From assembly GCF_965363235.1 (NCBI RefSeq), contig NC_134847.1:56204439-56268438 (forward strand): a stretch of 64,000 nucleotides of DNA, read 5' to 3'. Origin of the DNA: Mytilus galloprovincialis (Eukaryota; Mollusca; Bivalvia; Mytilida; Mytilidae). Of this stretch, positions 839-61,600 are shown one piece after another; the stretch's first letter is position 1; every line of letters starts with the position of its first letter. The position numbers and the translations under genes were made by a program. Below the pieces are notes generated by a model. That model made no database searches, was not told the origin of the DNA, and was given only the letters and a program-made list of their open reading frames with translations.

Positions 839-862
839 ATAATAAAATAATTAAAAAGTTAA

Positions 863-914: not shown

Positions 915-2589
915 ATGTAGTGTCGCTATAGGCGACGTCGTTAATGAGGTTTTTAAAGAGCTATTTGACACAACAGTTATACCCAGAGGGTCTAATCGAA
1001 AGTGGAATTCGAAAATCTAAACTATTAACACTTCAAGAATTACGAACCCCGAAAGTGAAAGACACGGATGAAAACTTAAAGAAAATACCGTTTGTTACTA
1101 CACATGACCCGTCATATCCAACTAAGTTAGACATCACGTGACTTCTGTGACGTATACTAGCCGCCATTTTGTATTATATTTCCCCATATAAAATGCATAG
1201 ATGCTTCATCAATGTTGGTCCTTACAGTTTAATTTTTGATTAAAGTCGGTCGTTTTAGAGTTGTAAAACATGCACTTTTTCTCGTCATTTCTCCGTTGAC
1301 TCAATGCTAAATTACCGATACCCATGTCTACTTGTACAACAAATAAAGAAATTCCGTAAATAAAAAACAAACTTTGCAAATCGATTAAGTATATTGAAAC
1401 ATAGATCTGGCGGGGAATACTACTTAAAACAGTTTAATTTTACTAGGGCAAATTCGGTCAAACATCGATTTAAAAAAGGGAAATTTTCGGGATTTTTCAA
1501 AATGGCGGATGATGTATATGAAAATGTTGCATCAAATCAAGGATTTGTATAGCATGTATAGAAAGACTTTTCTAGATTATATTTAAATTTTCATTCAGAA
1601 TCTCTGATACTTCTGTTGTTTTCTTTGGTGACATTTCGATATGATTGATTTCAAAATGTCTTGATAAAGAAAATATTATTTTAAGTGTGACACGGGAACA
1701 TTTATTTTGACAGATATCCAGTATTTACTGTTACCGGAAAATATTTTACAATAAAATTCATAATAATTTTTTTTCTCTTCTTTTTTTAAAGGTGTTTTTC
1801 CTGTTTTCTGTATATTTTATCTTTCTGTAGAAATATATTTATACATTCCTTATAGAACAAAAAAATGTTTTCATCCGATGAGAAAAAACCCAATGCCCAA
1901 CAATTATTATAGATAAATATTCCATACCTTTAAAATTTCATCCCTTTACAGAACAGGTGAACTCTGACTTGGGTATAAAGTTACGTAACAATATATTGTC
2001 AGGTAGACGTGCAAACCCAAAGCAACCAGGTGACATTAAACATCCTGTCAGTGTGTACACATGTATTACCAGAGTTTAAATTTTGTGATATACAAAAGTT
2101 TTAATAAATGTACAAATAAATACCTTCTTTTAATTTCCCGTGTCAAATCAGAAGACGTATGTATCATAATAAACTTTAAGAACATATAAAAGATATTCAA
2201 ATATTTATGTTACCATACTTATTTTAAAGAAATATTATGATTAAAATTTTAATTTAATTTAAATGGATTTTTTTTTTTATTATTTTATAGGAAATTCAAC
2301 GAAATTTTATTATTATTTTTTTTTTTAATTCAATATTTTAAGCTAAATCCCTGCATTCAGTATAAAGTTTAACTCGTGTAAAAAAAATGTTATTGTATAC
2401 ATTTAAACAGAGACGTCGTATAATACGATTGCTCTGATTTCAACAATATTGTATACCCTATAATATCTATCGACAGAGTTATCGGTCCTGAATAGGACTG
2501 ATATAGCTGGGTATGATTTACCAAACGCTTTTAATACAATTATTAAATCAAACCTCCCGATTCTACACGAAAGTGAAACTATTAAAAAA

Positions 2590-3099
2590 TTGATACCGGA
2601 AGGAAACTTAATCTACAGCCGAAGACAACCTAAAAACTTAAAGAAACACTTAACCAGAGTTCGGTTCGAACCGAAGGTTTGTGACTTTGAAATAAAGTCT
2701 TGCGGAGATTCAAGATGCGGTGTTTGCGGTCAAGATACAAAATACTTAGAAACGGGCAAAATGAAATCATTTAAAGATGGCAAAAAATTTCATGTGAACG
2801 CCAATATGACTTGTAAGACAACAAATCTTATTTACTGTGTCACATGTCCTTGTTGTCACGAAAATTATATTGGACAAACCGGGAATAGCCTCTGTGAACG
2901 GGTGCGAGTTCACAAAGAACAAATAAAACACCCAAAATACAGAAATTCGCCAATTAGTGCTCATCTTGATACTTGTGGTAAAAAGCATTTTCAAATAATG
3001 CCTATTTTTAAATGTAGACGGGATGAAGCATATAGAAAAGAGATGGAACGTTATTTCATAACAACGTTCCGATCGAAATTAAATCCAGAGAACTTTTAA
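2590..3099 (+). CDS. GIY-YIG endonuclease part of the Penelope-like element
   Basis: The 169-residue open frame has a zinc-binding-like CGDSRCGVC near residue 38. A GIY-YIG core follows: LIYCVTC at about 80-86, then YIGQTGNSLCERVRVH. The conserved Arg and His of that helix are visible. This order (Cys cluster, then GIY-YIG) is typical of the C-terminus of Penelope-like elements. In-frame codons continue upstream of the first ATG, so the ATG is not the true start of the original protein. Confidence 0.8.
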   Translation: MIPEGNLIYSRRQPKNLKKHLTRVRFEPKVCDFEIKSCGDSRCGVCGQDTKYLETGKMKSFKDGKKFHVNANMTCKTTNLIYCVTCPCCHENYIGQTGNSLCERVRVHKEQIKHPKYRNSPISAHLDTCGKKHFQIMPIFKCRRDEAYRKEMERYFITTFRSKLNPENF

Positions 3100-3163: not shown

Positions 3164-3215
3164 CAGTTATCCTGAAGAGTCCCAATGGAAGGATGAAATC
3201 GATAGAATGGAACTG
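3164..3215 (+). ncRNA. Hammerhead ribozyme motif, right end repeat of the Penelope-like element
   Basis: CTGAAGA lies at 3172-3178, stem II at 3179-3182 with 3191-3194, GAAA at 3195-3198 and palindrome TCGA at 3199-3202. The predicted cleavage is after A3204. Stem I pairs 3164-3168 with 3211-3215. It lies just 3' of the GIY-YIG frame and in the same sense, so an element transcript would carry it. Confidence 0.75.
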
Positions 3216-8091: not shown

Positions 8092-8130
8092 GGTCACTGA
8101 AGAGACATTAGTTGTCGAAATACTGGTGTA
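8092..8130 (+). ncRNA. Relic hammerhead ribozyme, second family
   Basis: CTGAAGA at 8097-8103, stem II GACA/TGTC (8104-8107 with 8113-8116) with a 5-nt loop, then GAAA at 8117-8120. After that the sequence goes straight to TACTGGTG, so most of stem III and the cleavage triplet seem deleted. The TCA before the core could pair with TGG after it. Probably inactive. Confidence 0.45.
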
Positions 8131-20400: not shown

Positions 20401-21402
20401 GTTTACGATATAGACTTTTCCCAGTTTTAAAGTATATACATATTTGCCGTCTACCAAAATCAAACTTTTTTATAACGATCCCTTATCAAGTATGATACGA
20501 AAGAGAACTTGTACATATTTCTGCTTTACATTAGCGGCCATCTAATTTCAAACATAAACATAAGATGTACCCAATAGTTAGAAATAAGAAGATGTGGTAT
20601 GTGTGCCGATGACACAACTCTCCATCCCCAACACAATGAGTAAAATTTACAATTATAGGTCAGAACAGTCTTCAACGTGGAACCTTTAACACGTAAACAA
20701 TTATTATAGGTCAAAGAACGACTTGTCTTTAAAAGTATAGTTATCAAAGGTACCAGGATTATGATTTAGTACGCCAGACGCGCGTTTCGTCTACACAAGA
20801 CTCACCAGTGACGCTCATATCATCAAAATATTTATAAAGCCAAACAAGTACAAGGTTGGAAGAGCATTAAGGATCCAAAATTCCAAGTTGTGCCAAAAAA
20901 TATAGACAAGTTCACGTAAAAAAGGCAAAATAAGAAAATACCAAACTCCAAAGAAAATTTAAAACGAAAAGTCCTTTATGAAATTGCAAAATCAAAACCT
21001 CAAAACACATCAGTTGAAAGGAAATCAACGGTTCATATATTCCTGACTTTGTACAGTCATTGCTTTATGTACAAGTTGAGGATTAAACCCTGTTTTAAAG
21101 CTAACTATAAATCTTTTACGTCTCACATTTAACACAAAACGTTAATTGATAAGACGCATTACACTAAACTATTAGTGTTCAGAGTACACATGCCTTGAAT
21201 TCTATTTCATTTGCTTTTATCAAGCAGTACATTTGAGACAAACAACTGACGAGAGTTCTTGAAAAAAGGTGAGAAGAAATTGTGAAATTTTATGTGAGAA
21301 TTCTTGTTGTACGTGTACTTACCCTGAATATAACGAAAAAGAGCACAAAACTAACACTAAAATGTGTTTCCAGAGATGATCTGAACTCGTAACTCCAATC
21401 AT
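11032..21402 (-). CDS. A2: short single-pass membrane protein with PPxY tail
   Basis: Five exons join to 762 nt, encoding 253 residues: 21323-21402, 18227-18340, 16670-16791, 11930-11986 and 11032-11420. All junctions have GT/AG with matching phases (2, 2, 1, 1). Residues 1-26 are a signal peptide with core [14 protein letters not shown]. Residues 27-105 are a Cys-rich ectodomain ending in [14 protein letters not shown], like the end of an EMI domain. Residues 106-124 are a short linker. The membrane helix is about 126-144. The tail has PPPY (183-186), LPEY (194-197) and PPSY (203-206), motifs known to bind WW domains such as those of NEDD4-type ubiquitin ligases. It is the intact partner of A1 and a shorter relative of B and C. 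Ligand and function are unknown. It could act as a small adaptor or receptor, which is inference. Confidence 0.75.
11930..11986 (-). CDS. A2 exon 4: short membrane-proximal linker
   Basis: 57 nt, phase 1 to 1, acceptor TTTCAG and donor GTATGT. It encodes [18 protein letters not shown] with no Cys. The corresponding A1 exon (4826-4882) has the same length but an in-frame stop. Confidence 0.7.
   Translation of the reverse strand, partial: VPCPTCTWELIVLAFQLL
13740..14156 (-). pseudogene. LINE reverse transcriptase fragment
   Basis: 138 residues. The first 85 match the linker between endonuclease and polymerase ([16 protein letters not shown]...). Then [20 protein letters not shown] and RLFADDCLL mark polymerase motifs. 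The segment between them is shorter than in a full element, so the fingers region has been lost. Confidence 0.8.
15298..15651 (-). CDS. LINE N-terminal frame with 2A peptide and PHD-like finger
   Basis: 117 residues. Residues 1-22 look like a signal peptide ([16 protein letters not shown]). Leu-rich residues 59-67 lead into GDIEQNPGP at 69-77 (15421-15447), the ribosome-skipping 2A consensus. A Cys/His cluster follows (CGLC...[15 protein letters not shown]) like the PHD-type finger of CR1-like LINEs. 2A motifs are known at the N-terminus of LINEs from sea urchins and molluscs. Confidence 0.75.
   Translation of the reverse strand: MNLVATILIVSFLYSIGTSITTGKSLEHQQLLTTTLNKNMLHTGRRPLLLPIKGKNKHRLVLLLILLRGDIEQNPGPREKQQSIYLCGLCDHPVTWTCEGVCCDDCDISHHRSCIEL
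16670..16791 (-). CDS. A2 exon 3: EMI-like Cys segment
   Basis: 122 nt (phase 2 to 1), donor GTAAGA. It encodes 40 residues with [17 protein letters not shown]. The CCDGW pattern matches the close of EMI domains and the third exon of gene B. The A1 copy at 5361-5482 is the same length and still open. Confidence 0.8.
17265..17345. repeat. Small foldback
   Basis: GGCAATAA and CCTAGGC phrases recur in both orientations (GCGGCAATAAG...TAAGTTATTGCC), able to fold as a hairpin of roughly 80 bp. Confidence 0.45.
17385..18226. repeat. Tandem copies of the exon 2 donor region
   Basis: A unit of about 65-85 bp containing ACACATCAGTATGTAGGACT and GAGTTTTTGTTAATAAGTAG recurs about five times (near 17400, 17480, 18080, 18125 and 18190). 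Read on the minus strand each unit resembles the last 40 nt of A2 exon 2 with its GTAAGT donor. An unrelated bivalve repeat (17538-18075) splits the array. Confidence 0.6.
17538..18075 (+). repeat. Common bivalve interspersed repeat R6
   Basis: It contains TAGGGATAGTGATCCGGCGG and repeated TGACCTCATTTTCATGGTTC-like phrases. I recall this sequence as widespread in bivalve genomes. No coding potential. Confidence 0.6.
18227..18340 (-). CDS. A2 exon 2: Cys-rich segment
   Basis: Acceptor TTTTCAG and donor GTAAGT frame 114 nt (phase 2 to 2). It encodes [20 protein letters not shown] and then a GGRRCY...LFGC segment with four Cys. The 3' end and donor of this exon have been copied several times into the next intron (17385-18226). 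Confidence 0.7.
19700..20740 (+). repeat. Cluster of repeat family R5
   Basis: Three copies in a row (19700-19900, 20040-20290, 20575-20740) share GAGTGCCAATGAGACAACTC and AAACCATTATAGGTCAAAG. Related fragments lie at 18665-18760, 43505-43700 and 51480-51600. Intronic in A2. Confidence 0.65.
20737..20935 (-). repeat. Retrozyme-like repeat R1, copy in A2 intron 1
   Basis: Matches the 45023-45377 unit over its first part. The hammerhead at 20770-20816 (minus strand) keeps GAAA and the palindromic CGCGCG but has CTGGTGA in place of CTGATGA, so it is probably inactive. Confidence 0.7.
20925..21130 (+). repeat. Interspersed repeat family R3
   Basis: Shares AAAATTTAAAACGAAAAGTCC and a TTCCTGACTTTGTACAG-like phrase with copies at 28205-28500, 31895-32240, 39255-39640, 40950-41330, 48080-48260 and 50805-51015. 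Confidence 0.6.
21323..21402 (-). CDS. A2 exon 1: signal peptide
   Basis: The ATG at 21402-21400 opens 26 codons with a hydrophobic core [10 protein letters not shown]. The exon ends in phase 2 at a strong GTAAGT donor. Its phase matches exon 2. A TATAAAAA-like stretch lies only about 18 nt upstream, too close for a normal promoter, so a further 5' leader exon may exist. Confidence 0.7.
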
Positions 21403-23026: not shown

Positions 23027-23385
23027 CTACTCTTTATGACATTCTTCCTCTTGTACTTGAACTTCAATGGCTGCGACATCAACAGATGTGTCATACACCG
23101 GATTATAGATGCCTTTCTTTGAAAAGACCTTGACATCCAGTTCCTCATACATTGGGGGTTTGTCATCTCCAGTAATATATTCAGGCGGGAGTTTCATTCC
23201 TCCTGCTTTACCATATGATGGCGGCGGTGATCTGGAAGTAGGTGTAGTTGCGTAGATTTCATTGTTGTATGCGTTGCTTTCATTTCCGGTTCGCTGTTCG
23301 GTGCTTCTTTTCTTCATACGACGGCAATACAATGCCCATAAAACAGCAGCAATCAGAAGAACGACACCAGCCAGTAGTCCAACCA
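23027..23385 (-). CDS. B exon 12: membrane helix and tail
   Basis: Starts after ATCAG, chosen over an upstream AAG by comparison with gene C; either choice keeps the frame. Helix LVGLLAGVVLLIAAVLWALY, then CRRMKK. The tail has NAYNN, PPPSYGK (585), PPEY (598), PPMYEE (608) and NPVYD (626). Stop TAG at 23027. Confidence 0.88.
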
Positions 23386-38300: not shown

Positions 38301-41300
38301 CGTTGTCAGTTTATTTTCGATTTATGAGTTTCACTGTCCTTCTAATATCTTTCGTCCCTTTTTTACAAAACAGTATGCCGGACTCTTTTGTTAAGAAAGA
38401 AGATATTGATTAAGATGTTTTCTATATATGCGTATAAAGTTGGCTTATGAATAGAATTAACGTCCCGTTCCAATTTTGTGGAAATTTTACTTAAATTTTA
38501 TTGGTTATACTTATAGATCTGAAGCTGATTTTTGGTACATCAATGTTGAATCTGATATGGGATATACATAAACTCATAATAGATACCAGGACTAAATTTA
38601 GTATATACGCCAGACGTGCGTTTCGTCTACAAAAGACTCATCAGTGACGCTCGAATCCAAAAAAGTTAAAAAGGCAAAATAAAGTACGAAGTTGAAGAGC
38701 ATTGAGGACCAAAATTCCTAAAAGTTTTGCCAAATACAGCTAAGGTAATCTATGCCTGGGGTAGGAAAGCCTTAGTATTTCAAAAAATTCAAAAATTTGT
38801 AAACAGTAAATTTATAAATATAACCATTTCAATGACAACTGATGTCGGCACAAAAATTGATGATTACTGGACTTGTGATACCCTGCGGGAAATAATAATT
38901 TTCAATGAGACAACTATCCGAAAGAGCCAAAATGATGCTAATTTAAGCAATAATGTGTCACCATACAACCTTTAACAATGAGCAAAACTCATATAGTATA
39001 GTTAGCTGTATAAGGCTATAAAAAAACAATCTTGAGCATTTCCTTTGTTATTCAAGATATTTTCAAATTGAGGTCAAGTCTTTGATTTTTCTGTCTTCTC
39101 TCAATTTGTCTTTTATATTTTGTTGAATTATTAAAAGTTACTTTCAATCGAATTATTCACAGGATACAATAACGTCTTGCAACATTTATTAAAAATATTC
39201 TGGCACTTTTCTATCGGTAGATTCCCAATCATAAAATTTTCACTTCATATATGGCAAAATACGTAAAATAACAAAAATACCGACCTTCTATGAAAATTCA
39301 AAACGCGTAGTCCCTAATCAAATGTCAAAATCAAAAGCTCAAACACATCAAACGAATGGATAACAACTGTCATATTCCTGTCATATAACTGGTAATAATT
39401 GAATAGTTATAGGGTGGTGCTAGTGAATCTTCAATCATAATTAATGCAAATACCTCTTTTAAATTACAGTATGAAAAAATTAAAATCACAAAAATACTGA
39501 ACTCTGTGGAAAATTCAAAACGGAGAGTCCCTAATCAAATGGCAAAATCAAAAACGCACACTTATCAATCGAATGGATAACAACTGTTATATTCCTGACT
39601 TGTTATAGCCACTTGTTTGTGTAGAAAATGGTGGACTAATTGAGAAATAATTCATGGAAGCAATAGATTGTTGGAAATTTACACATGGCGTGGGCCGTGA
39701 TATTCGAATTTTATCCTGAGCGTTAGTGAACCAGGCCATGTGTAAATTTCCAACAATCTATGGCTTCAATGAATTATTTCGATTCTAATAGGACAAATAC
39801 GGTCATTAAAAAACTGAAGCGAGGAGTTGGTATGCTGTGTATGTGGCTGTTCTTTTTTACTCCCTGTTAGATAAAGCTCAAATATCTTTATAAATATGTA
39901 ACTTGCGTAGGTTATTTCGAGAATAACTGTTAAAAAAAAACTTTTTAATTCTTTAAGTTCTCAAACCCAACATTTGTCATTTTTAATTTACATGTTTTTC
40001 TCGTAAGCTTCCGTCAAATCAAAGGTTGACATTTTGTAACTAAGGAGCCGCCATGTTGACTTGCTGAAATGGGTAAATATGCGAATAATGCAATAGAATA
40101 GAAAATAAAACAAAACCTACCTCAAAAAATCAGTTTTAATACAATATCATACGAATTCCGATGGTTCACGTAACAGAAAAATTTCAAGTTTAGCGGTTTC
40201 ATTTGTATGACGTCATGTTTTGAAATGACTTAAAAGCGCCAAAAAGATTAATAGACTTTCGCGAAATTTTATTTAATTTTTATTTTGTTGATTTCTCCGA
40301 GCTCTTGTGCATTACTTCTTTTTATTGTGCATACGAATAAGAATAAAAGTTATTTTGTCTTTTTTAATTGCACTTTTTAAAACAATAAAATCTGCAAATA
40401 GGTTCCAATACATGTAGATTTACGTGGGAAGTATATTGTAACAGCCATTATTATGCATATCTCTGAGTCTGCACTAAGTATATTTTATCGAGAATTTTAT
40501 CACAGTGTTGTTTACAAAGTTAAAGAAGCACGTCATATTAGAATCCCTTTTAAAGCTAGTTAAACCTCTCACTTGCATGACAATCGCATTAGATTCTAGA
40601 AAACGTGCATAAAATAAATGCTAGCTTAAATATTTTACCGTATACCAAAGCAATCTCAAATTATGAAGTCGACAACTTAAGACCAATACATACATTTGTT
40701 AGGTTTTAGATCTTAAAAAATGTGATATGTGAATTTGAAGTTACGACGACGTACACACTGTCATACAGATTATATCGTTTGGGATAATTCAACGTTTAAC
40801 ATTAACAAGCGCACAAATTCAAGAAAAAAAGTCAACGACTTCATTGTTGTCCAATGCAAATTAGTATGAAAAGTACAGATATGTTTATAAAACTACTGAG
40901 CGGGGTAATAATCTTTGAAACTGTAAATTGAGAAATAATCTGTGAAATGAAAAATAAAATCATAAACACTCCGAGGAAAATTCAAAACGAAAAGTCCCTA
41001 ATCAAATGGCAAAATCAAAAGTTCAAACACATCAAACGAATGGAAAACAACAGTTATATCCCTGACTTGGTACAGGCATTTTTTATGTAGAAAAGGGTGT
41101 ATTGAATCTGGTTTTAAAGCTAGCTAAACCTCTCACTCGCATCAAATTCAGTTATATTGACAACGGTGTGTACACAAAACAAACCGAGTTAAAATGTCAC
41201 AAATAGGGGAACAACAGCAACAAGAACAATGTATGTCATACACAGTGTATAATGTATGTCATGAACAGTGTATAATGTACATCATAAACAGTGTATCGAC

Positions 41301-44825: not shown

Positions 44826-45055
44826 CATGTCACCTGGTAAAATGAATGGTGGCGCTGTACATGAATTGAATGACAATTCTTTTTAAACTGTAAACACTAT
44901 TATTATTACCTAATATTTATAAATATGTCATAGTAGGTTAAACACAATGGGTAGATTTATTGTAGCACAATTTCACTTAGAAATGTCAGTATGCTGTAGA
45001 ATATCATTACTAATAAAAGGAGATAGTTATCAAAAGTACCAGGATTATAATTTTA

Positions 45056-45102
45056 TACGCCAAACGCGCGTTTCGTCTACATAAGACTCATCAGTGACGC
45101 TC
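45056..45102 (-). ncRNA. Hammerhead ribozyme, dimer unit 1
   Basis: Minus strand: CTGATGA at 45088-45094; stem II GTCT (45084-45087) with AGAC (45075-45078) and loop TATGT; GAAA at 45071-45074; palindromic stem III CGCGCG at 45065-45070; cleavage triplet GUU ending at 45063; stem I GCGTCA with TGGCGT. GUU is a permitted but weaker site than the GUC of other copies. Confidence 0.8.
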
Positions 45103-45410
45103 AGATCAAAATAGTTAAAAAGCCAAATAAATACAAAGTTGAAGAGCATTGAGGACCCAAAATTCCAAAAAGTTGTGCCAAATACGGCTAAGGTAATCTA
45201 CTCCTGGGGTAAGAAAATCCTTAGTTTTTCGAAAAATTCAAAGTTTTGTAAACAGAAAATTTATAAAAATGACCATATAATTGATATTCATGTCAACACC
45301 GAAGTGCTGACTACTGGGCTGGTGATACCCTCGGGGACGAAACGTCCACCAGCAGTGGCATCTACCCAGTGGTGTAAATAGTTATCAAAAGTACCAGGAT
45401 TATAATTTTA

Positions 45411-45457
45411 TACGCCAAACGCGCGTTTCGTCTACATAAGACTCATCAGTGACGCTC
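45411..45457 (-). ncRNA. Hammerhead ribozyme, dimer unit 2
   Basis: Same as unit 1, shifted by 355 bp, with core CTGATGA at 45443-45449. Cleavage at both would release a linear RNA of 355 nt. Confidence 0.8.
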
Positions 45458-46094
45458 AGATCAAAATAGTTAAAAAGCCAAATAAATACAAAGTTGAAGA
45501 GCATTGAGGACCCAAAATTCCAAAAAGTTGTGCCAAATACGGCTAAGGTAATCTACTCCTGGGGTAAGAAAATCCTTAGTTTTTCGAAAAATTCAAAGTT
45601 TTGTAAACAGAAAATTTATAAAAATGACCATATAATTGATATTCATGTCAACACCGAAGTGCTGACTACTGGGCTGGTGATACCCTCGGGGACGAAACGT
45701 CCACCAGCAGTGGCATCTACCTAACAGGAATAACTGTATGTTATTCTCTGGTTCATTTTCTCTCGTGTATATTTTACTCAATAACTTACTTTTGCTTCTC
45801 GTTTTATCCATTCAACCACTACTTTTATCCATTTTAGTTTTGCCTTTATATGTTGTTTTGCTATTCTTAATATGCTTTTCAATATAATTCTTACTTGATT
45901 TAGTTTGTTGCAGTAAATATGTTTATGAATACTTAACAAGTACATGAATGAATTATTCTAAAGGCATATATCAAGAATCGAACATTTTAGAAATAAACAA
46001 ATATTAAGAAGAATTTTAGAGAAACTTCCTTCGTTTAGAACGCATAGTATCATCTATGCATCGTCAATTGATTCCAACCTCTGTATACAAATAT

Positions 46095-46265
46095 GCATTT
46101 GATTTCCGAACATTTGATTGCTCAAGTTAAATGTGGTCGAGTGGCCTGGATACTGAATATTCATACAGTTGTTTTCTTTGCATTTGATGTACCCAGTCGA
46201 ATGCTGATATGTCACATATATACACATTACGTATACCTTCAGTATCCAGGCACCTCGACTACATC
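46095..46265. repeat. Foldback element
   Basis: GTCGAGTGGCCTGGATACTG and its complement lie about 110 bp apart, with outer arms that also pair in part. Confidence 0.6.
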
Positions 46266-48486
46266 TTACTTCATATTCTGAGATGAATGATTGTTAACAA
46301 GACATCGTTAAATTTTTGAAAGCTCTCTTACTAAGTATTTTGAAGCTAAATTATTTTTGTATTGTCCCTTCAATAGATAGAAGAACCACGGGAAACTAGT
46401 TATATTGAATATATAACCCACACTGAGTGCGCATAACCTTTGATAGAAGTACTGGTAGTAAAATAAATATGAAGTGGTGCAATATATATCAATTGAAAAC
46501 GTTTGGATTGTGTTATATATGAGCGAATCACAAATTCACCATAAAAAGTAAAGTATGATAATATATCATATTTATATCTATATAAGCAAACATCACAAAT
46601 ATTTGTACATGTATATAGAATGGAGGGGTTATATTAAACAGCATTAAACCTCGTAGCCTTGAAATGTGTGCAAGTACCTTTATTAGTTGACCTAACTTTT
46701 AAATCAATTAATTAATCAATAAGTGGTTTTTTTTTGTAATGAGAACCACATATGCTTCTCCTCTTGTTCACTAGTTTTGGTATCTATAAGAGACGAACTA
46801 CGTACAGGGATTTGTCCATTAAAAATATAGGAGGTAGCATTATCATTTCTGCTTTATAGATTAAGTCTTCTAAATGGATAACTCAAGTGTTGGTGGTTAT
46901 ATTGTGCGTGCTCATATATATCCTAAGAACGACCATTTGGATCATTCGAGAAACTAGAATGTTCGACAAATGAGTTGATTTCAGCTTCCTGTTATGTATT
47001 TTTAAGTTCTATGTAGCAACATCAAAAAAGTACCTGCATATGGAGTATATATCTCTAAGGATTCATAATTTGAAATTTGAAGTATTTCTTTCAAGTATTT
47101 TACGAATGCCAACCCGAGATGTGTTTAAGTGTGTGTAGATGCTCTCTTTTTTATACACCAGGTATTTCTATTTGTCTGCAATCTAACTCAACATTTTTCA
47201 TTTACCATATGGGACAATGATTCAATTCATTATACAGTCACTAGAAATTAATATATCATACAAACAAGTATAAGCAAGTGATAACCCTAAGATATGTATG
47301 TCCACTGGATCTCAATGTGTTTGAGATACAGGTTTAATACAAATACATTTTTGTAATTATAAAAGTCTGATTATTAAACCCAACTGTGTTAGCATAGGAT
47401 ATTTATGCTGTCTTTTTTTTTTTTATTTCCATAGACAAATTAATTAATATTTCACATGGACTAGGTCAATGGCGAATAGTGTGCTTTCAATTTGTCTTAT
47501 TTATAACTCCCCATTCATGATAAAAAAAAACACCATGGGCGTCGTCTGTGACCTTAATTAACAAAAAATGATAAAATCTGTTCACGAAAGCCATGCTCAC
47601 AGTAACGAAATTAGGAAAAAGGTCTAAAATTATCTGTCTGGAATACTTATGTCCATACCAAAAATAGTAACACTGTTCTTTATATTAATGTATTAGTGTA
47701 TTATAAATATTTTTACTATATCATAACTCCAAAGTTTGTTTGATAGTTAGGTTTAACAAAACACATTTTAGACCTGTCTTGTTTTCTATTCTGTTGTGTT
47801 TTATTGTTATTCGCATTATCATACTATAATGCATGTTTAAATGCGTCGGTGGTGATGTCGGTAAACATGGACTGCATGCTGCCCATTGCGGAAGGTCAAC
47901 ATTTGATGAGTTTTGAGCCAAGAAAGACGGTTCAGAAACTTAACATCGTTGCTTCTTTTTTATAGTGATGAAGATAATAACAGTGTTGACTGTTGTAGTC
48001 CAATTTTTTAACATTTTTTAGAAATAGGTCTGTTTGTTTTATTCACACATGGTTGACAATATTATGGATTCTATGCGACTGTCATACAAGTGGGATGTTT
48101 AGCTTGCTGTAAAACCAGGTTTAATCCATCATTTTCTACACAAGGAAATGCCTGTACCAAGTCAGGAATATGGGTTGATCTTTTGACTTTGACATTTTAT
48201 AAAGGACTTTCTGAATTGAAATTTCCTTCAAGTTCATTTGTTATTTCACTTTAGCAATCCCGTATGGAGATGACCAGGTACACATTGTTTAATTATCAGC
48301 CACATCGTAAAATAAAATGTTGGATTTTTATTTGATAAAAATATAGATACAAATACGGTATACAACAAGTGATTAAAACCTCAACAAGTATGTTGCTTTC
48401 AAAGCACAATATCGTTAGACATACCAGATGTCTTCAATTTTCAACAACGTATCAGATAAAAAATGTAACAAAAATATGAAAAAAGG

Positions 48487-49304: not shown

Positions 49305-49669
49305 TTAAGCATCTGCCTCGTCTCTCATTCTCAGTTTTATGTTCCTAACTTCAAGTTCATCTGAAGAGTCGTAGACAGGATTCTGTACACCCTTCTTCAT
49401 GAAGACCTTGACATCCATTTCTTCATACAGAGGTGGTTTTTCATCTCCCAAAACGTACTTTGGTGGAAGTTTCATTCCACCGGTTTTACCGTAAGATGGA
49501 GGAGGAGTTCTGGGTGGAGTTGCAGTTGAGTAGATAGCATTGTCATAAGCATTTTGTTCATTTCCATTTTGATGGGCATTCTCTTTTTTCTTCAGCCGAC
49601 GACAGCACATTGCTGTTAGAATAATTGCTATGATAAGAATCAATACTGCCAATACACCAATCACGGGCA
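49305..49669 (-). CDS. C last exon: membrane helix and tail
   Basis: Acceptor TTTTGCAG, helix LPVIGVLAVLILIIAIILTA, then CCRRLKKK. The tail has NAYDN, PPPSYGK, PPKY, PPLYEE and NPVYD at the same spacing as gene B, diverging only in the last 20 residues. Stop TAA at 49305. Confidence 0.9.
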
Positions 49670-52600
49670 CTGCAAAATAGATTTTTTGGTATTTTATTGG
49701 ATATTTGTCGTGCATATATAATTTTGATCACTTTAAATTAATATTTTTTACAGCCCCCTTTATGCAAATAAGCTTAATAATTAGTGTACTGAAATTTGGT
49801 GTTATATAAATGGTTTAATTACACTTTGGTTACTACGGTTTTTGTTGGGAATTCGTGTTTCTCTGTCTTTTGTTTTCTGTGTTGTGTTTTTTTTTCTGCC
49901 ATGGCGTTGTTAAGTTTATTTTCGTTTGGTGAGTCTGAATGTTCGTTTAAAATCTGGTACTCATTATGTATTTTTAACTTTGCAAGTCTGTATTCTTAAG
50001 CTGTAAAGTACAATAAACAAAAACACGATGAGAATGAAAGAAATTCTCGTTTCAAGTAGCAACACAAATCAACTTATTTGGAAAATATCTTTTAATAAGC
50101 GACAAAACAAAATAACCGATTAAATCAGCTCTAAATCTTTAAGAATGGCACACGAAAGAATTACTGTTTTGTGTATTAAAATTTAAACTGGTACGTAAAG
50201 TCAATTGGTTTGTGTTCAGAATTTCAGACTGGTCTGTTTTCATAGAAGAGAAAATCAAAGTACCCTGATAGCCTTGAATAAACGACAGACCCTTTTCTAC
50301 AATCTCTGATCTATAAACGGAGACCTTTCCATACTGCAAGTGGCATGAGGTCTGTTTCAAACTCTTATAGTAATGATGAAAGTCTTTATTGATTTGACTG
50401 GTATAATTCGACCAATACAAATGACATTCGGACCGTTTATCAAATCTTAATTGTGCATTATTTGTTATATATATATATAGTCTGTACTCAATCTTAAAGC
50501 TCTAGTTCGATCGTTTTTTATACATATTTATACACTACACATATATGCAACATTCCAAGTCAGGAACATAGCGAGATTTAAACACAGAAACGGTGATTAT
50601 GCAATCGGTCGGCTCCTTTCGTTTATTCAAATCTTTTTACAGGTAAACTCTCGACAGAGATTTGATTTGTGCAATTAGAACCCTTGCTTTCTGGGAGATT
50701 TGAGACCATGTGATTGTATGTGGTTTGTATAGTTACATCTAAATAGTGTTCTCTAGATAACTTGTATTTCAAGATTGATTCTAATGACTAGAATGCAAAA
50801 AGTAAAACCAGAAAAATTACTAAACTCCAAGAAAAATTCAAGACGGAAAATCCCTATTTAAAAGATGATAAAACATCTAAAGCTCAAACACACCAAACGA
50901 GTGGACATCAACTGTCATATTCCTGACTTGGTATAGTCATTCTGTTATGTGGAAAATGGTGGATTAAACCTGGTTTTATAGCAAGCTAAACCTCTCACTT
51001 GTATAACAGTGGAATGCAAAGTTCAATTTGTATTTGATTTTGACTAGAAAACTATTAGACCACTATCGTGTCAAATCTTACATATAATCATATCTTTCTT
51101 ATTTTCTTCATCGTCTCTCTTCAATTGATTAGGCATAGTCGGATCGGATGATCCTACAAAATAAAATCAAGTTTGAATATTGTTTCGCATAAAGAATAAT
51201 TAAACCTATGATATGATTTATATACAATTTGAAAAAAATTAAGCACACATATTTAGATCAATTGATCGAAAATTATTATTTAGAAGATAAATACATAAAC
51301 TATTTTCTTTTGACATATTGTCAGAAATGTTTTGTTCGGAAAAATCAGTATTAGGCAGGTTAATATGTTAATATGTCTATTGTATATCTTAGAAGTTGCC
51401 TTATGTAACAATTGAATGATAGAATTTATTTAAAGGGATACAATAAAATTGGAAAACCATAATAATCAATAAAATATTAATTATAAAAAAGAAGATGAGG
51501 TATGATTGCCAATGAGATAACTCCCAACAAAGAGACAAAATGACACCTAAAATTAACAGCTATATGTCACCGTACGGCCTTCAGCAATGAGCAAAGCCCA
51601 TATCGATAATATGTCGATAAAATTCGTTACCTCTCTTATAGACAGCTACGAGGAAACGACAGGCCGCGACATTACCCTCGTGATCAACAGCAACATACAT
51701 GAGCAGATGTGAGCCTTCTGGAAATTTGCTATTGTTTTCATAATCAGAAATAAAATTTTCTTTTTTTATGCCAACGTTGTCTGAAGCTTCTGGTTTGTCC
51801 CAGCTAATAATTTCGTCCTCAAATGCAGATATTTCTGATGGACATGTGCTGTACATTGGTGGATGATTGTCTGCAAGTATAAGTATAAATTATTTGAGAG
51901 TATACGTCACTGAGACAATAATTTAAATAGCACAAAATATGATATAAAAAAAAAAGCGGAAACGTATCCCTTTCACAAATTCATACATAGCCGACAACCA
52001 AAGCGGTGTGATAGTTCGACAACGTCTAACATTTTTGAGCCAATTGCGTATTGATATTTTTACTTTGGTGTACCAATAATCGAGAATTGCCCAAAACCCA
52101 TTTTTCAAACACAGGATTCTGACTGACTACTTGACATTCAAAACTTATTCTGAACAGAGCTTTGGTGTTTGTTTCAGGCTGCTGAGACGGATTATTATAT
52201 CAGACATTCCGCTATCATGTTATTGATAAAACTTTTTTTTGCATAACGTATTCTCATCAATTGATGTTACCATTTACCAATTGTAATGTATAATGTTCAA
52301 TAATTATAAAACAAAAAAGGAGATGTGAGGGTATATGTAATTATGAAAGCACACACAACGACAAAATGGTGTTACAAAAACAACAAAGATTGAAAATAAC
52401 TAAACTTCCCAATTTACCGGATTTGAGCACCGGTAAACTACCGTCGCCTTTTATCGTATAGCAATTGACATCAAATCATCATTTACTTCCATCAAGATAA
52501 TGATGACATATATATTCATATCTATGGGTAAAATGTATATGAATAATAAAAAATCTACAAAATTCATATCTGACCTATAAATACAGAATTTCCAGTCCAG

Positions 52601-55600
52601 TTTTGTATAACGAATGTAATTCCTAACGAGAATGTGTCCAAAGTACACGGATACCCCACTCGCACTATCCTTTTCCATGTTCAATGGACCGAGAAATTGG
52701 GTAAGAATCTAATTTGGCATTAAAATTAGAAAGATTATACTATAGAGAACATATTTACTAAGTTTCAAGCTTAAATTTCATCAAAAACTATCTTGACCAA
52801 AAACTTTAACCTGAAACTCCCACTTTCATTTTCTATGTTCAGTGAACCGTGAAATTGGGGTCAAAAGTCTAATTTGGCTTTAAAATTAGAAATATCATAT
52901 CATAAGCAACAAGTGTACTAAGTTTCAAGTTGATTGGACTTCAGCTTCATCAAAAACTACCTTGACCAAAAACTTTAACCTGAACGGACGCACAGACGAA
53001 CGGACGGACGAACGAACGGACGGACGAACAAACGAACGAACGAACGAACGGATCCACAGACCAGAAAACATAATGCCCCTCTACTATCTTAGGTGGGGCA
53101 TAAAAATCTACATTTAAATTCGCAATTGTTGAATATTAACCGTCTTTTGTTTAGACCTATAACATAAAACGTATTTTAACAACATTTAAACTTACCGACA
53201 ACATGAACTGTAATGTGACATGATGCAAACCGTCCATACTGATCTGGGGGATGAGACTGGGCTGTAATAATATGAATGTTTTTGCCGCAAGAGCAAGGAA
53301 CAGCCTCGATAATTTCCTTGGAGTATTGAATCTTGTATGTTTTTCCAGAATTGTCAACCACAGTCAGGTTCACAGATCTACGAATGTCAATAAACTTTTC
53401 TCTGTGGGTATTGATAATCAGTGTACCACTTGGACAATGTTTGAACGATGGTCCTGAAAATAAAAATGTCTGCAATGTAAGCTTGGTTTACCTTTTTAAA
53501 GTCATATGCCTTATCTATGACAAATTTTCTTAATTAATTTCAATAATTTATATTGTGCTCCCGTTTTACTATTAAAAATTAAACAAAAACAAAAATCTAC
53601 ATTTCAATCGGAAATGTCATCCCCTCATTGATAACACATAAAATATGATATTCATCATGTGGACGATTAATTGTATAAAGCAGATATTTCTACATTTGGC
53701 ACACAAAGTTATATCAATTTTATCAATTCAACACTTAGATAACTTCAATATACACGTATATATGCACACATGTACCTCACTAAGCAGATATTCTGTGAAT
53801 TCAATAAACTGTGATTATTGCTTAAAAGTTTAGTTTTGCTAAACATGTGTTACACACACACACACACACACACACAAATGAGCAGATAGTTATGTAGATG
53901 AAAAACACGCGAGGGTACCGTTTTGTATGTCTTAGAAATTAACGATGAAGCGGTACCAATTATAAATACAACTATTCCACTGTTATGTAAGCGCATTAAA
54001 CAAACACTTCAGTAAAATAGACTTAGAATTCCAAAATTATTTTAATTCATTTGAAATACTCGATGTTAAAAGCCAGTGAAAATCCGTGACGTTGTTACAT
54101 AAACAAAAATAAGGTATTGATATTTTCATATTAAAACATATATTTCTTAATTCTTATTGTAAAGCCTGAACCACTCTGTGAAACAAACATTTAACTACGA
54201 ATAGTAAGTACTTCAGTAAATTTGATTTAACAAGACAAATGCTAACTGATGATACCCCTGTCCAAATACTTGACGGAAAACAGAAAGTCGGTGAGTGATA
54301 AACCTGAAAACGTATCACACGGTATACCCGAATAATATAAACTCCGAAACCAAATTTCAAGAATCCTTGTAATGTAGTTTCTGAGAAAAATGTGACGAAA
54401 AGTTCAACTTGGATGTCATGTGTAAAATGGTGTAATTGTTTGGTAAACAGGAAGTTGTTTAGTGGGGAATCTAAAAATGCATCACATGGTATATCCGACT
54501 CATAAACACTGAAACTAAAGGAGTAGGTCCAGTAAGACCCCTTTTTGGCCCCAAAATATAGCAGTTTTACAAAATTGTTAAAATGTAAACTTTTAGTCAT
54601 TCATTGGATAGTAGAAAGGTTCTGCTACATAAATATGGGCTCTTTTTGCCAATACAATGCACATATATTGAGAACTAGCACCATTAATTCATGCTAAATT
54701 ACTGAAATCTTTACAATTCCAGCATTTTAGTTAAATTTTAGACGGTTTCTGTGTAAAACGAAAGTGGCCGCATTCGTGTTCATCCAAAATATTGAAATGG
54801 AAGTTGTATTTAATGATAATACATAACATATATAAAGATTGAGGATGAACACGGTTGCGGCCACTTTCGTTTTTGACAAAAACCATCTGAAAAGTGACAT
54901 TTTTTCGCATATTTGGTAGATTTCTCATATTTGAGCCAGAATCGGATCGTTTTTAATGACTAAATAAGTTAAAATCTTTCACATAAATTAATTGCATCAT
55001 ATGAAATAAGTGTTTAAAAAGTGGTCAAAATCTTTCGTCAGATGAAACTGAAATTTGAGGCCAAAATCGGTCCTTACCGGACCTACTCCTTTCAGAAATC
55101 CTTGTAATGTAGTTCCTGAGAAAGATGCGTCGACAAATATTCATTGGATGGACGAATGGACGGACAAACAGAGGTAAAACAGTATACCCTAACTTTTTTC
55201 AGCGGGGTTTTAAAATGTCAATGATAACAGAATGTAAAAGAATGCTCAATTTGAATAAAGTGAACGCTTTAAAGCATTAAACCATAATTATAAACATGTA
55301 TGTTAATGCAAATACTATTCATGTCTCCTTTACAACATGAGAGAGAGGAAGAGAGGACGAGAGACATATGTTAAATTACTTACCAGTATTTGGAGGAAGA
55401 GTAGGTCGAACAGTCGTTGGTGGAGGTGTTGTGTCTAAAAAAAGAAACAATTTGTTTAGAGTAACAGACAAGGCAAAGACTCCAGATTATTGAAACTTTA
55501 TTTTGGTATTCATTTGGATAGAGCAATAATTAATGTGAACAAGATCTGACCATACCAATTGAAATATTAGTATAAGCTTTAAAAGGTGTACTAAGGATAC

Positions 55601-58600
55601 GATTAAAATTTAGACAGACTTTCTAATACTAATACTGTCTGGTTGCTTATACTAAGTGTAAAGCATGCTAAATACAGAACATAAATTCAAATTGATTATA
55701 TAGCATTTAAAAGCAGCAAGAAAAAATAAATCAGTCATAGTTAGATGACTTGAATAATCGTCATCTCAAGCTTACCATCACACACTGGACAACACTGTCC
55801 TGGAATCATTTTGGGATTTGCACAGTACACACAGGCTTCTGTACGACATGACCAATCTAAATATCCTCCATACTGGTATTGGCATACGCATGTTTTACAA
55901 TCTGTTTGTTTAATGGTGCTCATGTGCTGGTATTGTATACCATTGAAGGAGCATGTTGATGATTTAGGTGTAGTTGGGGCTGGTGTGGATGTTGCTAAGA
56001 GAAAAAAAAAAAGCAAAGCAAACAAGGTGCATATTATTGAAGCAACTTTCAAACAAGCCAAGTGTAGTCAGTTTATTTAGTACAATAACTTTAGTTAAAA
56101 AACTATGGTATCTGATCAAATAAAATTATTGAAACAATCCGAGCAATAAAATAATTTTTAATTTGAATAATTTGTTTTCTGTAGGAAATATAAAATATGT
56201 GAGGATATAAATCGTTTGCAAAGACTGTAAAATACAGTCACAAAAGTTTCTGAAATGACAAACTTTCAATTGTTTTTTTGCAGATAGTAATTTACCAGGG
56301 CAAACAGGACAGCATTGACCCGAGATTTTGACTGGATTGCTGCATTTCGGCTGTTGACAATCGTTAATCATGCAACTCCAGTTTGGTTTTTGTCTGTTCC
56401 TCGAAAAACAGGTACACATCATGCAGTCTGTTTTCCAGATATTGTGACCCAAGGGGTAAACTTCTCCGTTATATATACAGCTTTGACTGACTTTCGTGGG
56501 AGCTGGAGGTGTGGTAGTTGCTATCGAGACAAAGTAAACATTTACACAGATGTCTACATAAAGGTTTGATATCGTTCAAATTAACATTCATAGATAGCAG
56601 GATTGAATATTTTTATATGCACCAGAAGCGAAGAGCAAAAGGTTGAAGCATGCGTTCTTTAAAGTGCAGAGAAGATGGCTATGATATATGAAGTCTCTAA
56701 AGATAATTAAAGGATACATTGATTATCTGACATTACGGTATGGTTTCTTCTTACAGTTACAATGGTCTTATTTACTCAAATTTTAAATATATTGGAATAG
56801 AAAAACCTACTTTTGCATGTACATATTGGACAACCCCTCTCATCAGTTTGAAATCCATTTTCACAAAACATTTTACAAATGGGTCCACATTCATCTGGTG
56901 GTTTATCTACATTGATATAAAAAAACACTTTTGATAAATGAATATAAACATACTTGAGTTACAAATTGTACAACCCTTTCTCATCCATTTAAAGGATTAG
57001 ATTAAGTGTTATAAAAAAAAGTCATACAAAGCGCTAGTGTCAATTATTGCGAAACAGCAAGAAATTTGTATTTCCGAAGACCAAGTCAATCAGTTATAGT
57101 TTTGTGGGGATCAAAATTGAAAAATCTAAACTCAATATCAACACTAAAGACTTCAGAGACAACATACAAAGGTGGCTGAATTTGTGATAAGTCTAAAGGA
57201 ATAGCCTTGCAATTGAAATCAAATCATCATTTACTTCCATCTAGATAATTATGACATATATATTCATATCTATGTTAAAAATATATGAATTATAAATAGT
57301 CTACAAAAAACCATGCCAGGCCTATAAATATAGAACTTCGATTCCTTATTATGAGTTTTGTAATGGTTTCTTATGCAACTCCATTATGGTTTCTGTCCGT
57401 TCCTCGAAAAACAGGTACACATCATGCAGTCTGTTTTCCAGATATTGTGACCCAAGGGGTAAATTTCTCCGTTATATATACAGCTTTGACCGACTTTCGT
57501 GGGAGCTGGTGGTGTGGTAGTTGCTATCGAGACAAAATAAACATTGACACAGATGTACACATAAATGTTTGATATCGTTCAAATAAACTCATCATAGATA
57601 CCCAGGACTAAATTTTGTATATACGCCAGATACGCGTTTCGTCAACAAAAGACTCATCAGTGACGCTCGAATCCAAAAAAGTTAAAAAGGCCAAATAAAG
57701 TACGAAGTTGAAGAGCATTGAGGACCAAAATTCCTAAAAGTTTTGTCAAATTCAGCTAAGGTAATCTATGCCTGAGGTAGAAAAGCCTTAGTATTTCAAA
57801 AATTCTAAATTTTGTGAACAGTTAATTTATAAATATAACCATATCAATGATAATTCATGTTCATAAATACCAGGATGGATTTTTTTTATATGCATCAGAA
57901 GCGAAAAGCAAAAGGTTGAAGCATGCTTTCTTTAAAGTGCAGAAAAGATAGCTATGCTATATGAAGTCTCTAAAGATTATTTAAGGATACCTTGAGTATC
58001 TGACATTACGGTATGGTTTTTTCTTACAGTTACAGTGTACTCATTTTACTCAAATTTGAAATATATTGGAATAGAAAAACCTACTTTTGCATGTACATAT
58101 TGGACAACCCCTCTCATCAGTTTGAAATCCATTTTCACAAAACATTTTACAAATGGGTCCACATTCATCTGGTGGTTTATATACATTTATATATATATAA
58201 AAAAAACATTTGATAAATGAATATAAAGAAGATATATATGAAGACCAAGTCAAGTCAGTTAAAGTTGTTTGGGGATCAAAATTGAAAAATCTAAAACTAA
58301 ATATTAACACTTAATACTTCAGAGACAACATACAAAGGTGGATGAATCTGTGATAAGTCTAAACACTTAAGGAATAGCCTTGCATTTAGACAGATGTACA
58401 CATAAAGGTTTGATATCGTTCAAATTAACATTCATAGATAGCAGGATTGAATTTTTTTATATGCACCAGAAGCGAAGAGCAAAAGGTTGAAGCATGCTTT
58501 CTTTAAAATGCAGAGAAGATAGCTATGATATATGAAGTCTCTAAAGATAATTTAAAGATATCTTGTATTAATTTTATTATTTTATATTTGACTTTCGTAC

Positions 58601-61600
58601 ATGTTATATTAATGAATTGAAACTCTGTAGTTGATTTATGCCATCAAATCTTTGATTGTGTGAACACCTCTATTGATTTAGTGTTTAAGTGCTTTAGTGT
58701 CTTATTTTAACAGGTAATGCATTCAGCTATTTACCATGTAACATAAAAGTGCTTTATTAATTTGAGTAATGTGTACGCATACATATATGTTCCTTGTAAA
58801 TTATCAACTTAAATAATGCGCATGTATGCAGCTATAAAGCATGCACATTATTCACTTGAATGATATACATGCAAACAGCTATGGGCTATGCCATGGAACT
58901 TTGCTCATATATTTTATTTGATATGAACCATGTGCATTATTAACTTCAGTAATATGTACGCAAACAGCACTGTGCCATGTCCATTATAAAATTAAATAGG
59001 TATCAAGATAAGAAAATATATTGATTTAAGCATATATGTCCTATAACAGACTAGTATATTCCATTCCCTCTTTTTAATTTCAAGTTGCCGAGTTTTGTCG
59101 AATGTGTTCCAATAACAACTTTGCTGTATTTTCAAAATCAGACCAAACATTTAATATATCATTTATCTTTGAAGTTAATTCTTTATGAATTTTCTAATCC
59201 AATTATAATATACTTTTACCAATTTTGGTTATGTGATTTACACATTTCATTTAAAGGACATAAGGTGTTCACAAAAGTGTAAAGACGATACCAATTTCTG
59301 GCTCACTATTCGACTACTCCAGACAACATGATCTTTGTGGTGTATTACATTTATACAAAACATTATATAAAAATGTCCAAGGGGATTCAGTTCATTCATT
59401 GTCAAGCATTTCACAAGTGTATATAGTGCAGTGACATCTAATTATAATGATTTATTGTATTCGTTTCCGACTATAGGATATGATTCTTGTCTGAAGCAAT
59501 GACCACTACAACTCTTCAATGATACATAAAAGGGGGAGAAAGATAACAAAACTTGAAGAAATAAAAAGAGGGATTTTGTAAGATATAACTTATTTTGTTT
59601 ACCATCACAAACAGGACAGCACTGCCCGGGAATATACTTCTGTGATAAACATGTAATTTGAGGACAATCAACAATTCTACATGTCCATTCCGGATTTTGT
59701 TCTCCAATTTTAATACAAATACAAGGGTTGCAGCTATCTGTGCCGACCTCAGACCCTTCTGGATATTCAATTCCTTCCTTTGTACAAGTGTTACGTGGAG
59801 GACTAGTGGTTGTTGATGGGGCCTTTGTTGAAGGAACATCTATAATTAAAATAAGAGTCTAGCAAAACAGTTTTTTTTTATACATATAGTGAACAATATA
59901 GTGGTAAATTGAGTAATGTCAAAATACGAATGAATCTTTGCTACATAAACATTACAAAATGCTTTAAAAAATCTGTTAAGGGTTATATCAATTTAAGTCT
60001 TATCAAACAATTTCATTATGACAAGCGCTTTGATTTATTATCGTCAATTAATCCTCTCTTTATACATTTAAGGCGTCCTGGTGCAGGTTGTAATTAAATT
60101 GTTGTTGTTAAAATCACTGGCTTCCAGCTGAGGACTAAAACCAATTTTCTTATTTATAGTCAGTTTGAACAAAACTAGAATGTTTCCTTTAAGTTCGTTT
60201 CTCAACACAAGTTTGTTAAGTATTTTTATTAAAATATTTTGTGTTTGACAAAACTTATCAAGTCTGTCTTGATCCACAATTTGTTCACAGTCGGAATGTT
60301 CGGATGAGAGCTTGACACATGGTGAAAACACTGCTTTATTGTTGAAAACCCATGTTGCAGTGTTGGCTACTTTTCTATGTGTATTGGTTGTTATCACATT
60401 GACGTATACTTTACACCCTTTGTAGTTATATACATGTCTATACGGATAACTTTTCCCATAAACACGAAAACCCCTAATCTCATCTTATTTCCACGTAATG
60501 CTTTTTGTCGCTTTATTTTTCTTAAGTAATCTTTATTCGAATTGTGCTTTACTCAGACCACAATGTTCTTGCCATTATGATATTGTATTTGTCGTATCTG
60601 CGTTCATCCTCTGAGGGCATTAGATTTTCGGAGGAGGGGAAGACATTTTATGGAAATGAATATCTTTACCTGTTATGTAAAAATAAATTATGTCGACAAC
60701 ATGAAACTAACTATTCTGGAACACAAAATATAGAACATAATTGTGAACAAAAGGGAATATGCATAACAATGTGTATTTGTGTAATTAATATATCTATATC
60801 CATTTGTTCCCCTTTCCATAAGCAAGCATATGATTATAGTTAATTAGCAGAGAAATAATTTGTTATTGGTATTGTGTCTGTTTTCAAATTCAATCAAAGA
60901 AACAAATTCCACCTTAAGAAGGGTATTAGTTATATATTATTAGTGAATAATGTTATCTTGCAACGTTAGAATATGTTCTACAAAGAATATTATTCACGCT
61001 GTAACCATTGATTTATTCCCGATCTTCTGTTATTTATCTTCAATTTAAACATCGGTAAATTATTGTAGCCTTAATATTTTGTATATCAAAGCTTGATTAA
61101 CTATTCAAAACAACTTATTTTCACTGTTTACTTCACAAACACGAAGCTTTATTTGCTCTGGTCGATAGTTATGAAAGGTACTAGGATTATAATTTAATAC
61201 GCCAGACGCACGTTTCGTCTACATAAGGCTCGTCAGTGACGCTCAGATCAAAATAGTTATAAAACAAAACAAGTACAAAGTTGAAGAGCATTGAGGACCC
61301 AAAATTCCAAAACGATGTGCCAAATACAACTTAGGTAGTATATGCCTAGGATAAGAAAATCCTTAGTTTTTCGAAAAGTTAATAGTTTTGTAAACAGGAA
61401 ATTGATAAAAATGACCATTTCCAATCTTCTTGTGTAAAACACAAGATACAAGTACTGTTAGTATAAAACCACGTAGCCAGGGTATTCGAGAGACGAGCCC
61501 CAATTGATTCAATATTTATAAAGACTATTAAAGTTGAGATTGAAGTTAAAGCTTCGTGAACCCAAATACCCCCCCCCCCTTTTTTTTTGTCTTCTCAAAC

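Follow-up and report, generated by a model that had tools for sequence, protein, structure and literature searches.

The question raised by this locus is what a tandem repeat with a ribozyme motif in each unit represents, and how such an RNA might return to the genome. The window, by which we mean the whole stretch of 64,000 nucleotides analysed here (C10:56204439-56268438 of the Mytilus galloprovincialis assembly), was described in a first-pass annotation as carrying a retrozyme-like dimer of two near-identical 355-bp units. The period and the near identity were borne out (344 of 344 positions identical; TRF score 1398), but the dimer is not a full one: the 355-nt direct repeat at 45023-45377 and 45378-45721 amounts to 1.97 units, unit 2 being without the final 11 nt. 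Our analysis supports the assignment of 45023-45721 to a known kind, the mussel-type non-LTR retrozyme, which is a non-coding mobile RNA; the likeness to published clones is one of description. The locus is ordinary in kind and a good recent specimen, and the anatomy of its insertion turns an open question into a testable one. The papers on animal retrozymes do not settle the partner enzyme or the priming step, for which they propose candidates, and the fixed start, its position relative to the ribozyme and the stop zone described below offer a concrete, testable model. We consider it quite probable that the array is a recent retrozyme insertion that arose by hammerhead release of a 355-nt RNA, an internal start of reverse transcription, successive laps of the template and a stop at a stem-loop.

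The array and its hammerhead motifs

The features of the array are as follows.

45023..45377, minus strand (RNA sense): retrozyme unit 1, 355 nt; 45023 is unit position 1 and the fixed insertion edge
45378..45721, minus strand: retrozyme unit 2, 344 nt; ends at unit position 344, the variable edge and the RNA 5' side
45057..45100 (cmscan 45100-45057), minus strand: type I hammerhead of unit 1, RF00163 29.1 bits; expected cut between 45063 and 45062
45412..45455 (cmscan 45455-45412), minus strand: type I hammerhead of unit 2, RF00163 29.1 bits; expected cut between 45418 and 45417
45063..45417, minus strand: 355-nt RNA that the two cuts would release, 5' end 45417 and 3' end 45063, as deduced from the cut sites
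45313..45370 (unit 291-348), minus strand: G+C-rich stem-loop, 60% GC against 34% in the rest of the unit; a second copy at 45668-45721 is incomplete

The minus-strand hammerhead claimed for each unit, with core CTGATGA, a 4-bp stem II, GAAA, a palindrome and a paired stem I, is present with all of these parts in both units. Stem I is GCGTCA/TGGCGT (six pairs, two of them G-U), the core is CTGATGA and stem II is GTCT/AGAC (4 bp) with the loop TATGT; GAAA, the self-complementary octamer ACGCGCGT, U17 and the cut follow. The covariance-model check that the annotation had asked for gave a match of RF00163 (Hammerhead_1, cmscan) to both units, with an E value of 5.7e-5 when 781 bases were searched and 0.0046 for the full window. 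At the gathering score the Rfam search returned nothing in the window, because 29.1 bits is under the curated 34 bits, a score that two of 20 loci in this genome do reach. Chance can hardly explain the motif, since it occurs twice in register and in a large family. The expected cuts lie exactly 355 nt apart, in agreement with the junctions at 45063 and 45418 that had been predicted, and cleavage at both would thus release a 355-nt RNA.

The residue before the cut (H17), on which the annotation was silent, is U in both window units. U17 would be expected to make a slower hammerhead substrate than C17, a point against the proposed release of the RNA. Across 192 de-duplicated placements, which include the window locus and were picked for their resemblance to the motif in the window, the residue is C in 163, T in 27 and G in 2. 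The core is intact in 157 of these placements, and 142 also have a full stem II, at least five stem I pairs and UH. Covariation among the copies neither supports nor refutes the ribozyme: four double-change cells were counted, against a mean of 1.5 and a maximum of 5 in shuffles and 3-9 for slid pairings, and all four are the changes of one distant relative, L078/L079 (stem II GACA/TGTC, octamer ATGCGCAT, stem I GCATCA/TGGTGC; both sides changed at four pairs). In the other copies 94% of cells pair, the same as in shuffles, and the variation is mostly decay. A second hammerhead family (CTGAAGA, stem II GACA/TGTC), also seen in L078/L079, has a decayed relative at 8052-8120, which is oriented opposite to the other copies. 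The exact hammerhead pattern had no matches in the viral and prokaryotic collections. The predicted circular fold of unit A does not contain an active hammerhead, which counts against the proposed interpretation; some mussel circles likewise fold without one, according to excerpts of Cervera and de la Pena (2020; PMC7229834).

The same excerpts report that M. galloprovincialis has about 5000 type I hammerheads, which fall into two similar families with repeats of about 350-390 bp; they also describe in vitro self-cleavage of a cloned mussel repeat (kobs about 0.1/min), and abundant circular RNA, highest in gonad and mantle. The first-pass annotation had argued that the short palindromic stem III favours cleavage as dimers. 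Cleavage restricted to dimers is unneeded, given the self-cleaving cloned repeat and the statement, in the consulted part of a 2020 review (PMC7761336), that most invertebrate type I motifs cleave as monomers.

Relatives in the genome and surroundings of the array

Five other unit-like stretches were found in the window, all in the same orientation as the array, along with shorter and weaker matches on both strands.

20737..20897, minus strand: related retrozyme copy, 86.6% over 164 columns; RF00163 25.3 bits
31635..31842, minus strand: old related copy, 73%
38584..38890, minus strand: subfamily C copy with a well-formed hammerhead, RF00163 29.6 bits
57602..57860, minus strand: related copy, 84%
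61165..61418, minus strand: subfamily B-like copy, 89%; RF00163 24.6 bits

A search of the whole assembly (1.385 Gb, 331 contigs) gave 1444, 4007 and 2151 first-look candidates for three queries, with places on each of contigs C1 to C14; per query the best 40 candidates were scored and 30 loci kept. The repeat is presumably typical of Mytilus. Three subfamilies were distinguished: A, that of the window; B, 91-97% identical to A by segment (one unit compared); and C, 80-90% by segment and 59% at unit 1-34 (one unit compared). The hammerhead is the best-kept segment between A and C (90%; others 59-87%) and between B and C (92%), and between A and B the stem-loop comes out slightly ahead, at 97% against 96% for the hammerhead. 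Several characters by which metazoan non-LTR retrozymes are recognised are found here, namely a type I hammerhead in every unit, tandem units of about 150-450 bp in dimers or longer arrays, many dispersed copies, and a low GC content (38.0% in this unit; below 45-50% in the family). The retrozyme identity and the possible 355-nt circular RNA are backed both by relatives in the same genome and by the published mussel retrozymes.

The array L002 on contig C4 consists of 2.53 laps that are 99.7, 100 and 100% identical to the window unit, and in a BLAST comparison neither window flank (1000 nt each) resembled the L002 locus. A near-identical array in unrelated flanks shows recent movement, and the recent insertion that the annotation had suspected gains support from it. 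A third place, elsewhere on C10, matches at 100% over unit 1-293. The young A subfamily also shows that copies with U before the cut have moved recently.

The longest frame of the 355-nt unit, an antisense frame of 88 codons, has no Pfam match; hence the unit was rejected as a Penelope-like element proper, which would encode a reverse transcriptase and a GIY-YIG endonuclease. Coding by this frame is not favoured. A frame of this length arises in 86 of 2000 shuffles. The frame is open in B laps (86 codons) and closed in one C unit, and it gains the most stops (127 versus 69 and 52). The counter-sign is its nonsynonymous/synonymous ratio of 1.69, which is below those of the other two frames (5.02 and 3.22; 114 units).

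A position 260 bp upstream of a gene, also claimed for the repeat, was not confirmed: we found no coding evidence near 45984, and the nearest coding-like exon that we detected is 3.6 kb away. Pfam scanning of eight of the 12 frames of at least 55 codons from the array end to 47.97 kb, a scan that would miss short exons, gave none above cut-off and three weak matches (E 0.02-0.04). The coding-like frames farther on are these.

49305-49727, minus strand: nearest coding-like exon, 3.6 kb from the array; transmembrane by eye
56126-56575, minus strand: coding-like frame, VWC, above cut-off
59442-59858, minus strand: coding-like frame, VWC, just below cut-off
62392-62787, minus strand: coding-like frame, no match

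If the minus-strand frames form one gene ending at 49305, the retrozyme would lie 3.6 kb downstream in its sense orientation, and read-through transcription might reach it. By eye, the frames at 11032-11448, 23027-23392 and 49305-49727 (minus strand) are transmembrane-like with proline-rich tails, and one of them weakly resembles Commissureless (PF15957, below cut-off); other window frames have VWC and WAP domains. A tandem gene family may be present. Close to the retrozyme, at 46124-46271, there are 34-nt inverted repeat arms (85%) 80 nt apart. Rfam matches at E up to 1 include weak ones to microRNA models at 54739-54891 and 32474-32579, all under the gathering scores.

Insertion edges and a possible mechanism

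We examined the edges of about 80 arrays, drawn from the top-scoring 40 candidates for each query of 254-355 nt. Arrays were dropped if they lay within 40 nt of a locus end, had a best identity below 85% or were shorter than about 150 nt, and repeats of the same flanks were removed, as were two more (both from L025) for the right-end counts. Because of this sampling, short insertions are unseen, and single-lap arrays with other starts are perhaps under-represented. Among the 55 A/B arrays with both flanks at hand, 52 have the plus-strand left edge at unit 352 to 3 (34 at 1, nine at 2, five at 3 and four at 352-353); the three misses are L023 at 25, L062 at 5 and L078 at 58, of which L062 and L078 are old or mixed. 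The A query itself starts at unit 1 and could favour single-lap arrays, so we also restricted the count to arrays of over one lap, where 35 of 37 begin at the fixed edge (misses L023 and L078). Similarly, 20 of the 23 C arrays begin at C-unit 1. Read in the direction of the RNA, the fixed edge is the 3' one and sits 40 nt beyond the ribozyme cut.

A preceding piece of unit shorter than about 20 nt would escape BLAST, and a test of the flanks, leaving out L025, L029 and L041 (whose flank resembles the unit end), served as the control. The contiguous match of the flank to the unit's own end averages 1.5 nt, compared with 0.55 nt at control offsets, and A stands at flank position -1 in 37 of 49 arrays, against a background of 0.36. 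Clear target-site duplications were seen in two of 79 arrays, 42 nt in L011 and 24 nt in L040, both flush with unit 1 and both longer than the 4 bp above which those of metazoan non-LTR retrozymes lie. L077 has an 11-nt direct repeat near both edges, and five more matches of 11-12 nt lie farther off; the 99th percentile for unrelated flank pairs is 10 nt. For the window array no target-site duplication was found, and the scarcity of such duplications weighs against the mechanism proposed below. In the open-licence PMC literature consulted we saw no prior statement of the fixed start, and the excerpts of PMC7229834 contain none of the fixed edge, its distance from the ribozyme or the clustered ends described next.

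The right edges are spread over unit 25 to 355 and concentrate toward the unit end. In A/B, 19 of 50 fall at 305-355 (7.2 expected) and 15 of 50 at 331-355 (3.5 expected), and among A/B arrays of more than one lap the counts are 12 of 35 (5.0 expected) and nine of 35 (2.5 expected), respectively. The C arrays have nine of 23 right ends at 305-355 (3.3 expected); in the narrower zone 331-355 they have four of 23 (1.6 expected), an excess that is not significant. Four of the 50 arrays, the window array among them, end exactly at unit 344. The sampled arrays run from 0.65 to more than eight laps, and 33 of 50 cross the cut junction at least twice. The laps are continuous: of 83 distinct lap junctions, 80 are of standard length and the exceptions are 12 nt short, 24 nt long and 1 nt short, in a search that relied on recognising a unit start within 60 nt (none was recognised for 38 of 121 anchors, many being array ends). 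These junctions speak against template jumping between linear units. A stop at the ribozyme cut was also considered; right ends show no excess at unit 36-46, where none was seen among 35 multi-lap A/B arrays against 1.1 expected, and two among 23 C arrays against 0.7 expected, numbers that leave this test powerless.

One explanation of the tandem structure, which includes arrays of at least eight to nine units, is ordinary satellite DNA that was generated by unequal crossing-over and contains hammerheads incidentally. Against it stand a distribution over all of contigs C1 to C14, arrays shorter than one unit that share the fixed edge, insertions flanked by target-site duplications and the near-identical copy in unrelated flanks. 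Together they largely exclude this explanation, which we consider very improbable.

Our preferred explanation of the edges is retrotransposition of the element's RNA. A minus-strand read-through transcript of the array would be cut at both hammerheads to yield the 355-nt RNA, which a host ligase could close into a circle, as such circles are published for the mussel. A reverse transcriptase supplied by another element would then start at one internal site, which lies 40 nt beyond the ribozyme junction on its 3' side and immediately 5' to the stable stem-loop, possibly with a nicked A-rich target as primer, that is, by target-primed reverse transcription inside circular or uncut multimeric RNA. 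It would go around the template 0.65 to more than eight times, often halting when it meets the stem-loop again, and would leave a left edge (plus strand) that is fixed and a right edge that varies; the window array would correspond to 1.97 laps. From the fixed 3' edge, which differs from the ribozyme end, combined with any number of laps, we infer that reverse transcription starts at one internal site on a circle or multimer, because on a linear monomer cut at the ribozyme the enzyme would halt after 40 nt. In the circle, the start is followed on its 3' side by the A/C-rich UUACACC and then by the stem-loop (unit 348-291), which is predicted in one unit each of A, B and C, and the right ends at 305-355 fit a block at this stem-loop in each lap. 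Since a one-lap insertion has the start site and the stem-loop at opposite ends, formation of a circle would join them.

Alternatively, the template could be an uncut linear multimeric transcript, whose 5' end near unit 344-355 would set the preferred right edge, the hammerhead being of importance in some other way. The clustering of right ends at 331-355, the exact ends at 344 and the heterogeneity of units inside arrays agree with such a template, and a Penelope-like element inserts hammerhead-dead RNA equally well in vitro, unprocessed RNA being its main substrate (PMC11167929). On the other hand, published mussel RNA is mostly circular monomer, according to the excerpts of PMC7229834, and arrays with lap numbers from 0.65 to more than eight share the same start. 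Furthermore, a promoter is neither known nor found; an internal Pol III promoter in the stem-loop was rejected, as the box-B-like stretch of A is not kept in one C unit (by eye). We regard the linear template as rather unlikely. As for the heterogeneity, the divergence within arrays is smaller than the mean divergence from the nearest array in only 11 of 28 multi-unit arrays, a hard comparison in which two locus pairs are duplicated segments, and non-majority letters are also present in another array for 165 of 274 that vary within an array as against 260 of 275 that are fixed in one. Mixed templates or later exchange are therefore possible for some arrays.

Candidate partners and comparison with known systems

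The excerpts of PMC7229834 name LINEs or Penelope-like elements as possible partners, favouring the latter, and state that the circle needs a primer, either target DNA or a small RNA; in the consulted part of PMC7761336, no conserved motif points to a partner. A LINE-type element might recognise a 3' signal common to LINE and retrozyme, and a minus-strand LINE-like remnant at 13740-14159 (RVT_1 29.2 bits, cut-off 29.6) is present in the window. The fixed 3' edge, 5' truncation and variable target-site duplications characteristic of LINEs fit the arrays. LINE reverse transcription, however, normally begins at the 3' end of the RNA, whereas here the start sits 40 nt inside the cut unit, and we view a LINE partner as doubtful, although well short of negligible. 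The LINE-like stretch as a whole covers 13740-15054 (minus strand), with a partial reverse transcriptase (PF00078) just below cut-off.

A Penelope-like element is in our opinion the most likely partner, a choice we put at slightly short of even. Frangieh et al. (2024; PMC11167929) showed that an Anolis Penelope-like protein (PAc) begins reverse transcription inside its RNA in vitro, in an AC-rich stem-loop 111-118 nt into the ORF, with the hammerhead cut at 26 and AT-rich targets; the internal start explains the genomic "tail". Bdelloid Penelopes, in the excerpts of PMC3846280, have partial tandems, a 31-bp tail and target-site duplications present or absent. The fixed edge 40 nt 3' of the cut and the A-rich flank fit mobilisation of the Penelope type, with the start of reverse transcription deduced from genomic edges. 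The window itself contains a putative remnant of such an element.

2464..3099, plus strand: frame for a GIY-YIG endonuclease, Penelope-like remnant, PF01541 E 2.3e-7
3166..3206, plus strand: minimal type I hammerhead that lacks stem III and follows the GIY-YIG frame on its 3' side, with an inverted copy at 912-872 (minus strand); found by pattern and pairing

Inverted 139-nt repeats at 817-955 and 3123-3261 (98%) each contain the minimal hammerhead, and from the GIY-YIG frame, the hammerheads and these repeats the remnant spanning 817-3261 appears to be Penelope-like. The minimal hammerhead at 3166..3206 was absent among Rfam matches up to E 1. Inverted short tandem repeats of the CTAAAGTGCGATGG type at 3280-3355 and about 4380-4530 surround a stretch of about 1 kb beside the remnant, edged by TA runs. 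With the 3' part of the remnant as query (48 places listed; best 40 of 1836 candidates scored), each of the other 40 long matches (94-97%) has its end at query 361-375. This common edge lies 60-74 nt beyond the ribozyme cut and within a TA run, which, with the skipping of simple repeats, may sharpen it; five of seven short fragments likewise stop at 362-375. The family therefore has a similar layout in the same genome, a ribozyme followed by a common edge tens of nucleotides later.

It is possible, and we put it forward tentatively, that mussel retrozymes are parasites of Penelope-like elements: 40 nt past the ribozyme, the circle would present a Penelope-type internal start in the form of an A/C-rich linker and then a stem-loop. 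Attached to this stem-loop, a Penelope protein would prime on a nicked A-rich target and lap the circle until it met its own stem-loop. If so, the role of the ribozyme would be to bring the start site and the stem-loop together in every unit-length molecule. The model offers one position as a possible primer site, one stem-loop as a possible binding site and a Penelope-like family of the same genome as the candidate enzyme.

Compared with known systems, the window element shares with Penelope-like elements the type I hammerhead motif, partial tandems, a putative internal start of reverse transcription 3' of the ribozyme, AT-rich targets and target-site duplications that may be present or absent. 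Unlike them, it encodes nothing recognisable (they encode a reverse transcriptase and GIY-YIG), its hammerhead has a stem III and its start would lie 40 nt past the cut. Like SINEs, it is a short non-coding element that would be mobilised in trans, but it differs in its tandem laps and internal start, and the window has no Rfam match to tRNA, 5S or 7SL. Plant LTR retrozymes are also non-autonomous hammerhead-bearing elements with circular RNA, but they have type III hammerheads, LTRs, a PBS, a PPT and 4-bp target-site duplications; the match to the type I model and the head-to-tail units without separate LTRs rule out this type. The label retrozyme given at first pass is kept, with its type specified as the animal non-LTR form and not the plant LTR one. 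The closest likeness is to the retrozymes of M. galloprovincialis, which have a type I hammerhead in two similar ribozyme families, low-GC tandem units of about 350-390 bp, thousands of copies and, when present, larger target-site duplications.
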